DNA of 64,000 nucleotides from Sycon ciliatum. Its lineage: Eukaryota; Porifera; Calcarea; Leucosolenida; Sycettidae. The notes beneath the pieces were generated by a model that worked only from the letters and a program-made list of their open reading frames with translations, ran no database searches and was not told the origin of the DNA. The stretch is taken from contig NC_088645.1 of NCBI RefSeq assembly GCF_964019385.1, positions 33,483,302-33,547,301 on the forward strand. The letters are read 5' to 3'. A program made the translations under genes and the position numbers. Positions within the stretch are counted from its first letter, which is position 1; each line of letters begins with the position of its first letter. Below, one piece after another: positions 3,919 to 54,386 of the stretch.

Positions 3919-4086
3919 ATGGCGACGGAACCAGTCGAGAACGAACTGGATTGTGTTCTAGAGGATGTATGGATTGATGTTCTGTTACCAATGCTGTCAA
4001 TTCGCGACATCTTTCAGCTCTGTGCAGTAAACGGGCGCATCCGAGATCTGTTGCTGAAGGAGTGCACATTTAGACGTCTATGTCAG
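3919..4086 (+). CDS. F-box gene A, exon 1 (F-box domain)
   Basis: First coding exon, 56 codons, starting MATEPVENELDC. An F-box motif fills residues about 14-55: LEDVWIDVLLPMLSIRDIF, then QLCAVNGRIRDLL, then TFRRLC. This matches the usual pattern of hydrophobic first helix, D at the second-helix start, a conserved V near the middle and a closing LC. F-box domains bind SKP1 and bring substrates to SCF ubiquitin ligases. The exon ends CAG|GTGAGT, phase 0. The matching acceptor is at 13476, which leaves an intron of about 9.4 kb swollen by transposons. The ATG is preceded by GAGAAC and conserved in all four copies. Reading on past the donor gives a short conserved tail, so intron retention is possible. 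Confidence 0.85.
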
Positions 4087-4262
4087 GTGAGTAGTAATGT
4101 ACAGAGTTCATGCGTTTGTGTGTTTGGAAAAGCTTGGTTTCTTTTATTTGAATCAGTACCTTCTAAGGCGTACCGATTTTATCACTTTGTGTATATACAT
4201 GTAATTCGATGAACTACAAGCGATACCACACGAGTGTATGCATTTACATGATCAGGTCCTGA

Positions 4263-6605
4263 CTGGGAGTTGACACAGCCATATTATCTTTTGTTCCGAA
4301 GGTTCGAAAACGAACAAATCGTTATGGAAAGCCTTGGTTCACCTCTGTGCACCATCGCCTCCGTCAACGTCGAGATCGACTATTTGCTGCAGCAAAACGT
4401 GTCAATACCCCTGAGTGCTGGGCTGCTTATCGCATTTCAAGGAACTGCCTCGTCGCTGCCATCCGTAAAGCTAAACGTCACTTCTACGACCAGATGTCAG
4501 AAGGCCTTCATGCAGATCGAGGATCTTATGACTGGTGGAAGAGAGTCAAGAAAATGTGCCACATCAATTGTCCTCACACCGCTATACCTGATATACAAGG
4601 AGTCGATACCTTAGCGGTTACCGACCCTGAGAAAGCGAACATCTTCTGTCAACAGTTCGCCAAGAATAGTCAAGCTACACCGTCGTCGGATGCAGATCAT
4701 CGTGATCTCGCCATGCCTTCTTCTTCGGAAACATTTGCCATCCGCCCTCTGTCTATCGTGGAAGTATTCAAGGCACTGTCGACCCTAAGTGTGCGAAAGT
4801 CTACAGCTGGCAGTCTTCCTAACAGGATCCTACGAGAGACAGCAGAAGTGCTCGCCCAATCCCTCACTGCTCTCTTTAACCGCTGCACCACTTACCGATC
4901 CCAACCCCTTGAGTGGAAAGTTGCAATCGTTACCCCAATTTACAAGGGTAAGGGAAGTCGCAATGACCCTGCTAACTACCGGCCGATATCTCTGCTGAAT
5001 GGTGTGGCAAAATGCTACGAAGCGTTAATCAGCCCCCAGGTGTACGCGTTTGTAGCGAAACACAAACTACTGTCGCCGAAACAGTTCGGGTTTCGCCACC
5101 ACCGAAGCACGGTTGACCAACTTGTGCATATCGCATCAACTGTCAGCTCTGCATTTGATAACCGGGCCCAGTGTGATGCCGTCTTTCTCGATTTCTCGAA
5201 GGCATTTGATCGTACCAGCCATCGCCTCCTAGCCTCATGTCTGTCCGGTTGGTGTGCACCTGACTCATTCGCGTGGCTGATGGACTTCCTGGAAGGCCGA
5301 TCGATGTCTGTGCGGGTCGGAACCTCCTTATCAACCCATATGTCGCTCACCGCTGGTGTGCCACAAGGCTCCCACCTAGGCCCTCTATTATTCAACCTTT
5401 CTATCAACTCCCTTCCCAGCATTCCCCAATCCAGCGATCTGACTCTGTTTGCGGATGATTCCAACATGGTCTGCGTTTCTCCGCCTACTCTCGTACCCGC
5501 CGCGCACACTGCCTCCCTGCAACTAGACCTTGATAGATGTGTGAACTGGTCCCATAAAGCTGAAGCAGTTTTCAATGCTAACAAATGTGTCCATGTTCCC
5601 TTTTGCAGACCTAAATCAAACCCACCTGATCCCAGGACCGTCACCATGGCCGGTACGTTACTGACCCAGCCCTCTTCCCACCGCCATCTGGGCATCATCC
5701 TCACTCCTTCACTCAATCTGTCCCCCCATATTCAACACATTACCAGCAAATTTCGAGGTCGGGTTTTTCTTTTAAACCACATGTCCAACTTCCTTCCTTT
5801 TCCTGCTGTGAATCTTTTGTATAAATGTTATGTTCGTCCCCTCCTTGAATATGCTGTTCCCGTTTGGATGTTTTCCGTTTCAGCCACCATGTCCACAACC
5901 CTTGATAAACTGCAGGCTACTGCTGCTAGAGCATACTTAAATAGTAAACTCAAGCGTCGGCCTGACTGGACGACTTCCAAAGAAGACCTCAATGTTCTGT
6001 CCTCTTGGGAATCGCTAGTATGGCGACGGCAGATTCTTGGCCTTGTCTATTTCCACCATGTATTCTACCAATACCCCTCCTTGTTGTCTCACTTCCAGCT
6101 ACCCTCTTCCCAAAGCAGTCGTCACCCTTCATCCATAATTCTTCCTAAAGCTGGCACCTTCTTTCGTAAATCAACCCTTTTTTCTTTGAGTGTTGCCTGG
6201 AATAAACTTCCTGAAGATATTCGTTCACTCTCTACAACAGCGAAATTTAGTATTGCTGTTCGTCGGTATCATTCGCAATCTATGTTTTCTTTGAAAGGTA
6301 TTCCTGACTTTTGTGTCTAGGCTAACCATATCTATGATAGTTTCAATAGTTTGTGTATATGTCAGTTATAGTAGTCCGCAATGCTGCTTTTCTAATTCTC
6401 ATTATGATTAGCATGCAATGTACTACCCGAAGTACTGAATTTACTTCTTCTGTACTCTATATTCTAATGTATCTTCTACCTCTTCTCCCTTACGAACATA
6501 CTTTCTCATTTTCCATACTTATATAGGAGACTCCCTTCGATAGGCATCTATTTGCCTCTGGAGGATCCGTGAAATAAAAATCAATCAATCAATCAATCAA
6601 TCAAT
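4263..6605 (+). mobile_element. 5'-truncated LINE with (TCAA)n tail
   Basis: Insertion in the intron of gene A. A' has the empty site near 47590, where TCACT joins CATTTGAGC. The element begins in the linker between the endonuclease and RT domains and ends in AATAAAAATCAATCAATC, a microsatellite tail typical of CR1/L2-like LINEs. No clear target-site duplication is seen. It inserted after A and A' separated, or was never in the A' lineage. Confidence 0.9.
4347..6320 (+). CDS. LINE ORF2 reverse transcriptase (CR1/L2/Jockey-like)
   Basis: Uninterrupted 657-codon frame with a non-ATG listed start. The frame is open back to 4263, which shows 5' truncation and not a true start. RT core at residues about 190-450: PANYRPISLLN (208-218), VFLDFSKAFD (279-288), GVPQGS (337-342) and the catalytic FADD (368-371). 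The C-terminus has WNKLPEDIRSL (618-628), usual at the end of such LINE proteins. The apurinic endonuclease domain is missing, so the copy could not integrate independently. The intact RT frame suggests recent insertion. It is a passenger in the F-box intron. Confidence 0.9.
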   Translation: MHHRLRQRRDRLFAAAKRVNTPECWAAYRISRNCLVAAIRKAKRHFYDQMSEGLHADRGSYDWWKRVKKMCHINCPHTAIPDIQGVDTLAVTDPEKANIFCQQFAKNSQATPSSDADHRDLAMPSSSETFAIRPLSIVEVFKALSTLSVRKSTAGSLPNRILRETAEVLAQSLTALFNRCTTYRSQPLEWKVAIVTPIYKGKGSRNDPANYRPISLLNGVAKCYEALISPQVYAFVAKHKLLSPKQFGFRHHRSTVDQLVHIASTVSSAFDNRAQCDAVFLDFSKAFDRTSHRLLASCLSGWCAPDSFAWLMDFLEGRSMSVRVGTSLSTHMSLTAGVPQGSHLGPLLFNLSINSLPSIPQSSDLTLFADDSNMVCVSPPTLVPAAHTASLQLDLDRCVNWSHKAEAVFNANKCVHVPFCRPKSNPPDPRTVTMAGTLLTQPSSHRHLGIILTPSLNLSPHIQHITSKFRGRVFLLNHMSNFLPFPAVNLLYKCYVRPLLEYAVPVWMFSVSATMSTTLDKLQATAARAYLNSKLKRRPDWTTSKEDLNVLSSWESLVWRRQILGLVYFHHVFYQYPSLLSHFQLPSSQSSRHPSSIILPKAGTFFRKSTLFSLSVAWNKLPEDIRSLSTTAKFSIAVRRYHSQSMFSLKGIPDFCV

Positions 6606-52958: not shown

Positions 52959-53330
52959 GCACCTGGTGAACATGTGTTTTGCTTTTTATACCACTTTGGT
53001 CGATATTATCCTTCCACCGGGTCACTCTATAGCCGAGACGCACTCTACATCGCCCCAATGGATTCAAAATGAACTCTTTTGTGCTGGCCAATTCTAAGTT
53101 CTTCTCTTGAGGCTACTTTCTCTTGTAATAGGCAAAAACATGTTACTTGAACTTACTTCCCTTTCAAGTTAACGCGAACTACACTTAAAATATTGAATAG
53201 TTCTTATGATTAGAGGAAGGGAAGTAAGAGGTACTCTACTGTTCTGATGCAGGTCTGCGAAAACGCACAAGGTAATCGTATACTTTAAAAGTGATTTTCC
53301 GTTGTCTTGTTCGTTTGTCCATGCATGCAG

Positions 53331-54386
53331 CAACGCTATCAGCTAAGTCCTTCTTTGAACACGTCCTACATCAGTGCTGCGAAAAATATCTACATCTCCA
53401 TTTGCATAGTTAGCATGGATTCAAACCTGATTTGGGATAACTACAGGCTTGCTACCAGTGATTTATCCGAACAAGACCTTCTATGGTATGCGTCCAAAAG
53501 GAAAATCCTCCGGTGGAGATCTCGAAGGCCTGCCCAAGAAAGGTTCTTAGCTCGGACTCTACTTGATACGTCGGATTCCAGTCAGAGATTACTTGTTCAA
53601 GGTCAGAAGCTGACCTTAGAAGAAGTTAGCGCCCAATGGACATATGTTGTTGGTGGGACACTAGAAAAAGTGGGCGAAATCCTACATGAACGTTTCGATT
53701 CGCATGAAGGGTACCAGCAAGCTTTTTTAGAAAAGCTGGAGCAAGATGTTCCAACGCTGGTGATTTACTTGCCCCTGGCGTACCGCTCATGGAGACTTAA
53801 AGAGCTTGCACACTGCCTTCACAGCATTGTAGCCAGAGACCCAACCATGACCTCACGGATTCAACAGATCATATGCAACTTACCTAGCCGTCCAGTTCAA
53901 ACGTCCACGTGGGCCCATCAGCAGGCCCTGTACGACCTTCATTGGAAAGATGCGGATGAACTCACGTCTGCTGCACCAGCTGACGGTATACTATGGACCA
54001 GGATCTGTATTGATATCATTGCTCGACTTGCAAGAGATCGTTCATTTATTAGGCTCCTGATCACGGGAAAGCTTCGGACATCGCAGATGGACGATTACTT
54101 CAAGGCTGTCACTGAGTACAAACAAATCTGGAAGTATTTGCCGGAGTCCACTCGCCCCAGTCTTGCAGCTATACACCAGGAATTGGGAACGTTTCTCCTG
54201 TCATCAACATCAGCTTCGGACTCTAGGAAGGAATTTACGAAAATTGAATTGGTGAACGCCATGGTAATGATGGGCAAGAAACTGGTTGACGAAACAACTC
54301 ACAAATCCGGTACGGCCCTGACCGTCCAATCTCCCGCGGCTTATTTCATGGATCACTCTGCCATCCTACGTGTATGTATGCTATAA
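53331..54386 (+). CDS. F-box gene A', exon 2
   Basis: 351 codons plus TAA, acceptor and phase as in gene A. About 14 residues differ from gene A, several clustered (SGPTQRSLVQ to SDSSQRLLVQ). The frame is fully open despite this, which suggests selection or recent origin. Same type A tail. Confidence 0.8.
   Translation, partial: QRYQLSPSLNTSYISAAKNIYISICIVSMDSNLIWDNYRLATSDLSEQDLLWYASKRKILRWRSRRPAQERFLARTLLDTSDSSQRLLVQGQKLTLEEVSAQWTYVVGGTLEKVGEILHERFDSHEGYQQAFLEKLEQDVPTLVIYLPLAYRSWRLKELAHCLHSIVARDPTMTSRIQQIICNLPSRPVQTSTWAHQQALYDLHWKDADELTSAAPADGILWTRICIDIIARLARDRSFIRLLITGKLRTSQMDDYFKAVTEYKQIWKYLPESTRPSLAAIHQELGTFLLSSTSASDSRKEFTKIELVNAMVMMGKKLVDETTHKSGTALTVQSPAAYFMDHSAILRVCML

Follow-up and report, generated by a model that had tools for sequence, protein, structure and literature searches.

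F-box proteins generally bind SKP1 with their head and a target with their tail, the target being ubiquitylated by the SKP1-CUL1-F-box (SCF) ligase. The genome of the calcareous sponge Sycon ciliatum holds a large family of genes with this apparent layout, four copies of which lie in the window analysed here, a stretch of 64,000 nucleotides (C3:33483302-33547301, forward strand of contig NC_088645.1). The closest described systems are found in nematodes and plants. For Caenorhabditis elegans, PMC4063957 gives about 520 F-box genes together with 21 skr (Skp1-related) genes, and PMC8665587 gives 377 F-box homologues. SCF parts of this worm restrict the growth of microsporidia and virus (PMC4063957), and its F-box proteins have carboxyl termini less constrained than the F-box (PMC8665587). 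The plant FBX superfamily is characterized by lineage-specific birth and death with relaxed subsets (PMC3030570), and SKP1 is expanded in plant and worm (PMC1257465). A very large clustered gene family of another kind is that of zebrafish NLR-B30.2 proteins (PMC5041008). The sponge genes probably encode substrate receptors of SCF ubiquitin ligases, a family expanded specifically in this lineage, with a putative F-box fold and presumed SKP1 binding, target recognition and ubiquitylation.

Two-exon genes and their distribution in the genome

Each window copy has two exons on the + strand, which join in phase 0 between a GTGAGT donor and an acceptor reading TGCATGCAG. All eight exons (four F-box-like, four carboxyl-terminal) are open. 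Exon 1 is F-box-like, has 56 codons and codes for the protein start MATEPVENELD in the four copies; exon 2 codes for a carboxyl-terminal region of 351 residues (type A) or 368 residues (type B) and ends with the stop codon. Copy 1 is composed of exon 1 at 3919..4086 (donor at 4087), a 9390-bp phase 0 intron at 4087..13476 that carries a 2.3-kb insert of a retrotransposon lacking long terminal repeats (non-LTR), and a type A exon 2 at 13477..14532. Copy 2 has exon 1 at 26690..26857, an intron of 3215 bp (26858..30072) with an 11-copy 50-bp minisatellite and a type B exon 2 at 30073..31179. In copy 3, exon 1 (37730..37897) is separated from a type B exon 2 (42185..43291) by 4287 bp (37898..42184) containing the minisatellite and a 1.15-kb hAT-related insert. 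Copy 4 comprises exon 1 at 47245..47412, an intron of 5918 bp at 47413..53330 and a type A exon 2 at 53331..54386. The order of exon-2 types in the window is A, B, B, A; the exon-2 proteins are 96% identical between copies 1 and 4, 99% between copies 2 and 3 and 53–54% between types A and B. These four exon pairs, with their common strand, phase and splice sites, are present where an earlier note made from the sequence alone had placed them.

The window accounts for only four of the 123 loci detected in the genome (538 Mb in 313 contigs), a scale that was missed in the earlier note, which spoke of a four-copy family and overlooked the parallel expansion of SKP1. The exon-2 protein of copy 2 gave 115 matches and that of a paralogue on C1 gave 121; merged, they define 123 exon-2 loci, 83 on C10, 18 each on C1 and C3, three on C11 and one on C5. 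The searches scored best candidates only and further copies may be missed, the counts being those of detected loci. The exon-2 match spans at least 900 nt in 108 loci, 600–899 nt in nine and less in six, so that about 15 of the 123 are fragments or partial matches. A search with the exon-1 peptide gave 150 matches. The largest clusters are found at C3 33.14–33.56 Mb, at C10 12.97–13.39, 20.35–20.63 and 20.96–21.39 Mb, and at C1 6.1–6.7 and 7.8–8.2 Mb. No internal stop is present in 92 of the 115 copy-2 matches. The other 23 have a stop within the matched span, and some of them are clean with a nearer query (e.g., C1:6466933 in the search with the C1 paralogue). Identity to copy 2 is only 30–41% in 92 of the 115 matches. 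Among other genes searched for, COX1 gave no match at E ≤ 1e-20; Chitin_bind_4 and molluscan-type haemocyanin gave none either, but neither did the controls of these searches, and the two may still be present.

The model of a two-exon gene whose exons join in phase 0 is supported by same-strand pairing, by identical splice positions in divergent paralogues and by clades shared between exon trees. Of the 123 exon-2 loci, 108 are preceded on the same strand by an exon-1 match no more than 12 kb away (median distance 2.8 kb). When only the closest exon-1 match inside 12 kb is considered, it precedes exon 2 on the same strand at 104 loci and follows it on the same strand at five, and at no locus does it lie on the opposite strand; 14 loci have no such match. 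Fifteen exon-2 loci have no paired exon 1, and five of these hold internal stops. Twenty paralogous loci retrieved from this genome were compared for their splice sites. All 20 have the acceptor AG at the same codon, immediately 5' of conserved [Q/N/H/R][R/H]Y codons. In 14 of them exon 1 was located too, and its donor GT falls at one and the same codon every time (GTGAGT in 11, and GTAAGT, GTGAGA and GTAACT in one each). The sites are kept between paralogues that are only 33–38% identical. When each exon is given a tree of its own, three main clades recur in both: the C3 copies (support 0.999 for exon 1 and 1.000 for exon 2), C10-21Mb with C1-84Mb (0.911 and 1.000) and C5 with C10-20Mb and C10-23.9Mb (0.952 and 0.998). 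The remaining splits have weak support, and part of them disagree between the trees. The idea of genes split over two exons, already proposed for the window, is supported by these genome-wide comparisons. Note that at loci L028, L030 and L033 (C10, 13 Mb) and L036 (C10, 23.9 Mb) the frame containing exon 1 is open over 183–270 codons from stop to stop, the extra part being mostly upstream of the F-box-like segment; these copies may have a longer amino terminus.

The window copies are embedded in larger duplications. Copies 1 and 4 belong to one that relates 1–22 kb to 45–64 kb, with longer matched pieces 90–99% identical, and copies 2 and 3 belong to another, with pieces 91–99% identical. Part of the first (17147–22000 versus 57457–62286) is 97–99.4% identical, above most of the remainder (90–97%), for which gene conversion, a second event or haplotype carry-over are candidate readings. 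The non-LTR insert of copy 1 (about 4265–6600) has an open reverse-transcriptase frame of 657 amino acids and an (AATC)n tail, and is missing at the corresponding site of copy 4 (47586–47590). The retrotransposons look animal-like, which makes a plant source unlikely. The insert of copy 3 (40571–41724) codes on the - strand for a frame with a hAT dimerisation domain and is missing at 29618/29619 in copy 2. The 50-bp minisatellite occupies 28371–28926 in copy 2 (11 units) and 39437–39888 in copy 3 (nine units). Elsewhere in the genome, C10:13.21–13.34 Mb and C10:21.25–21.33 Mb hold member pairs of equal or similar score spaced by 60–64 kb, and also two equal-scoring pairs in inverted orientation. 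They could correspond to recent block duplications or to unmerged haplotypes.

The F-box-like head, the tail and the SKP1 cluster

Exon 1 is probably F-box-like. Nine of 12 exon-1 segments are matched by the Pfam model F-box-like (PF12937), with a best E of 0.0012, as are nine of 15 joined proteins, with a best E of 0.0026. Searched against PDB at E ≤ 10, a profile built from exon 1 and the residues next to it gave five matches, three of them to F-box proteins (FBXO3, E 0.018; FBXW19, 0.28; FBXO31, 0.96) and two to chains of the mitochondrial ribosomal protein uL29m (E 0.19 and 0.24). A bacterial helix-turn-helix model matches two of the 12 segments. The label F-box-like, in place of the F-box first assigned to these exons, is used because the Pfam scores are below cut-off while matches to F-box-like models and to F-box structures recur.

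Searches of Pfam, NCBIfam and PDB gave no convincing match for exon 2, in agreement with the earlier impression that no known partner repeat is carried by this region. At E ≤ 1, no Pfam model is found in more than one of 12 carboxyl-terminal sequences (best E 0.028), and LRR, WD40, kelch, FBA and FTH models are absent from the matches of these sequences and of the 15 joined proteins. An alpha/beta-hydrolase model matches three of the 15 joined proteins (best E 0.0057), under its cut-off where bit scores are shown. The NCBIfam scan gave nothing relevant for this region. The PDB profile search with exon 2 gave one weak match, to a CKK domain sequence (E 0.0086). Homology to CKK was judged spurious, the alignment taking in the histidine tag of the chain and other CKK chains giving no match. 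No relatives were confirmed in viral contigs (36 pattern-bearing stretches) or in prokaryotic genome contigs (89). The alignment of 12 exon-2 sequences (368 columns, 335 profile positions) has 14 invariant columns, so that exon 2 represents a single coherent domain family.

Since F-boxes act through SKP1, its genes were searched for. The genome has 18 matches to the SKP1 carboxyl-terminal domain and 22 to the POZ domain. Nineteen of the latter lie at C10 23.09–23.59 Mb, 12 of them with a carboxyl-terminal exon 0.7–1.5 kb downstream on the same strand. Complete two-domain SKP1 genes are found at these 12 C10 loci, within 0.5 Mb and with no stop in their matches, and on C14; C4 has matches to both domains that are not adjacent. 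The C14 copy has the best score for both domains and is presumed to be canonical. The four other SKP1 last exons that were read (L042–L044 on C10 and L045 on C4) share three changes relative to it: V replaces K and S replaces T in NIKNDFT, and A replaces D in ENDWC, all in the carboxyl-terminal, F-box-binding part. C10 is home both to the SKP1 cluster and to 83 of the 123 exon-2 loci. Of all observations, the coexistence of this F-box-like family with an expanded SKP1 gives the strongest hint at function.

Evolutionary rates, proposed function and alternatives

The two exons evolve at unequal rates. The ratio of non-synonymous to synonymous substitution rates (dN/dS) is below 0.5 in 25 of 28 exon-1 pairs from eight C3 copies. 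For exon 2 it is below 1 in 44 of 45 pairs from ten C3 copies, the exception being copies 1 and 4 (1.76, on 17 changes), with a mean of 0.61 over 21 pairs from seven C3 copies. Along exon 2 it amounts to 0.12 over residues 1–20; two variable blocks have 0.74 and 0.75 and two conserved ones 0.43 and 0.57, with block borders that were chosen after inspection of the alignment. Positive selection is not demonstrated; the 40-codon windows in which the ratio exceeds 1 contain few changes. The family has the layout of F-box proteins: a 56-residue amino-terminal head and a variable tail of about 350 residues, with the lower dN/dS in the head. The tail would bind targets.

In the proposed mechanism an intact locus would be a two-exon protein-coding gene. 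The F-box-like motif of exon 1 would dock on SKP1, and the domain of about 350 residues encoded by exon 2, weakly predicted to be mainly helical, would bind the target. The protein would act as an exchangeable substrate receptor of an SCF ubiquitin ligase, leading to ubiquitylation and degradation of the target. The family may have grown to more than 100 loci by tandem duplication, with SKP1 duplicating into a cluster on the chromosome that carries most of it. A conserved head and a diverging tail are what one would expect if the repertoire follows targets that change, whether pathogen proteins or other fast-evolving ones.

Several results weigh against this proposal. The curated Pfam cut-off for the F-box is not reached: of ten exon-1 segments rescanned among the 12, eight match with 13.1–19.1 bits for a gathering score of 24.3. 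A genome scan with the standard model PF00646 gives nine matches, none on an exon of the family, and such expansions may go unnoticed in annotation. The AlphaFold prediction of the tail failed, with a mean predicted local distance difference test (pLDDT) score of 35.1 for exon 2 of copy 2 and of 37.0 for the four window copies; a mostly helical tail is a weak hint from the four-copy prediction. Forty-two of the 150 exon-1 matches have no exon 2 detected within 12 kb. When about 4 kb were read for five of these, exon 2 was found in two, in one case only 22% identical to the reference row and in the other split across two reading frames, and in none of the remaining three. The cullin Nedd8 domain has four matches and no large cluster in a partial check, below the six or so cullins expected; as far as seen, cullin is not co-expanded. 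The excess of dN over dS between copies 1 and 4 corresponds to 14.5 non-synonymous and 2.5 synonymous changes. For exon 2, dN<dS reaches significance in part of the pairs (z = 4.5), others such as copy 1 versus 2 falling short of it (z = 1.2). Some copies may be drifting, as suggested by the non-significant pairs and by the excess between copies 1 and 4.

Among the possible readings, SCF receptors directed at fast-changing targets rank first, the same receptors with endogenous targets second and a family mostly under drift third. Endogenous targets, a sub-case of the SCF proposal, would be gamete or maternal proteins, selfish toxin-antidote pairs or transposon products. F-box antidote proteins occur in nematodes. 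The data separate no target classes, and the fast tail and the transposon insertions in the cluster fit this sub-case equally well. Set against it, the one functional precedent considered here for animals in which F-box and SKP1 genes expanded together, that of C. elegans, has an antimicrobial role (PMC4063957), and endogenous targets are considered rather unlikely.

Genomic drift would mean that F-box genes increased in number neutrally by unequal crossing-over, most copies having little function, and that SKP1 expanded in parallel by accident. The recent block duplications of the window and the C10 pairs 60–64 kb apart fit drift, several blocks and pairs of the tail have a dN/dS close to 1 or higher, stops interrupt 23 of the 115 exon-2 matches, and this model is published for many plant FBX genes (PMC3030570). 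It is made improbable by the 92 matches free of internal stops, by the constraint on exon 1 (25 of 28 pairs below 0.5), by the conservation of the splice sites and of the first 20 residues of exon 2, and by 12 complete SKP1 loci whose matches are all without a stop.

If exon 1 encoded a different short helical motif and SKP1 had expanded independently of it, this would account for F-box scores that are all under curated cut-offs and for the bacterial helix-turn-helix matches in two of 12 segments. It is very unlikely when confronted with F-box-like being the most frequent Pfam match (nine of 12), with FBXO3 being the best PDB match and with the expansion of SKP1 on the same chromosome. An assembly artefact in which the copies are unmerged haplotypes, suggested by some duplicated pieces 97–99% identical, is extremely unlikely, as 92 of the 115 matches are only 30–41% identical to copy 2 and near-identical window copies differ in transposon insertions.

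Comparison with described F-box repertoires

An expanded F-box family accompanied by SKP1 is already known as a general kind. The tail domain, the two-exon plan and the present expansion have no description in Pfam, NCBIfam or the open-licence PMC literature searched with general terms and judged by titles and the openings of abstracts; the family was earlier called a candidate for an undescribed one, which holds for these libraries and this literature, and a description under the name of the species may exist. Worm and plant provide documented cases in which receptor and adaptor expanded together (PMC4063957, PMC1257465). An independent case would allow testing both the repeated evolution of SCF repertoires as intracellular recognition systems and the pairing of adaptor copies with particular receptors. 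It is put forward tentatively that the sponge has an SCF recognition repertoire of its own, with more than 100 receptors, a tail new to the libraries and a private set of SKP1 copies that changes with them, serving intracellular immunity or self-recognition and arisen independently of nematodes.

FBXO3 provides the best solved-structure match to exon 1 and its adjoining residues (E 0.018), and the resemblance does not extend past this region. Zebrafish NLR-B30.2 proteins are unrelated to those of the sponge, and the likeness is one of genome organization only. Plant FBX genes share the expansion alongside SKP1-like genes; they differ in their recruitment modules, which are LRR, kelch and FBA (PMC3030570).

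The comparison with Caenorhabditis F-box and SKR proteins shows two differences. Nematode F-box-associated domains have Pfam models, while the carboxyl-terminal region of the sponge proteins has no Pfam match to a partner domain. In addition, a single phase 0 intron between head and tail is common to the fetched sponge copies. The likeness to Caenorhabditis lies in a big, tandem-clustered family with a conserved amino-terminal F-box, or F-box-like head in the sponge, a faster carboxyl terminus and an expanded SKP1.

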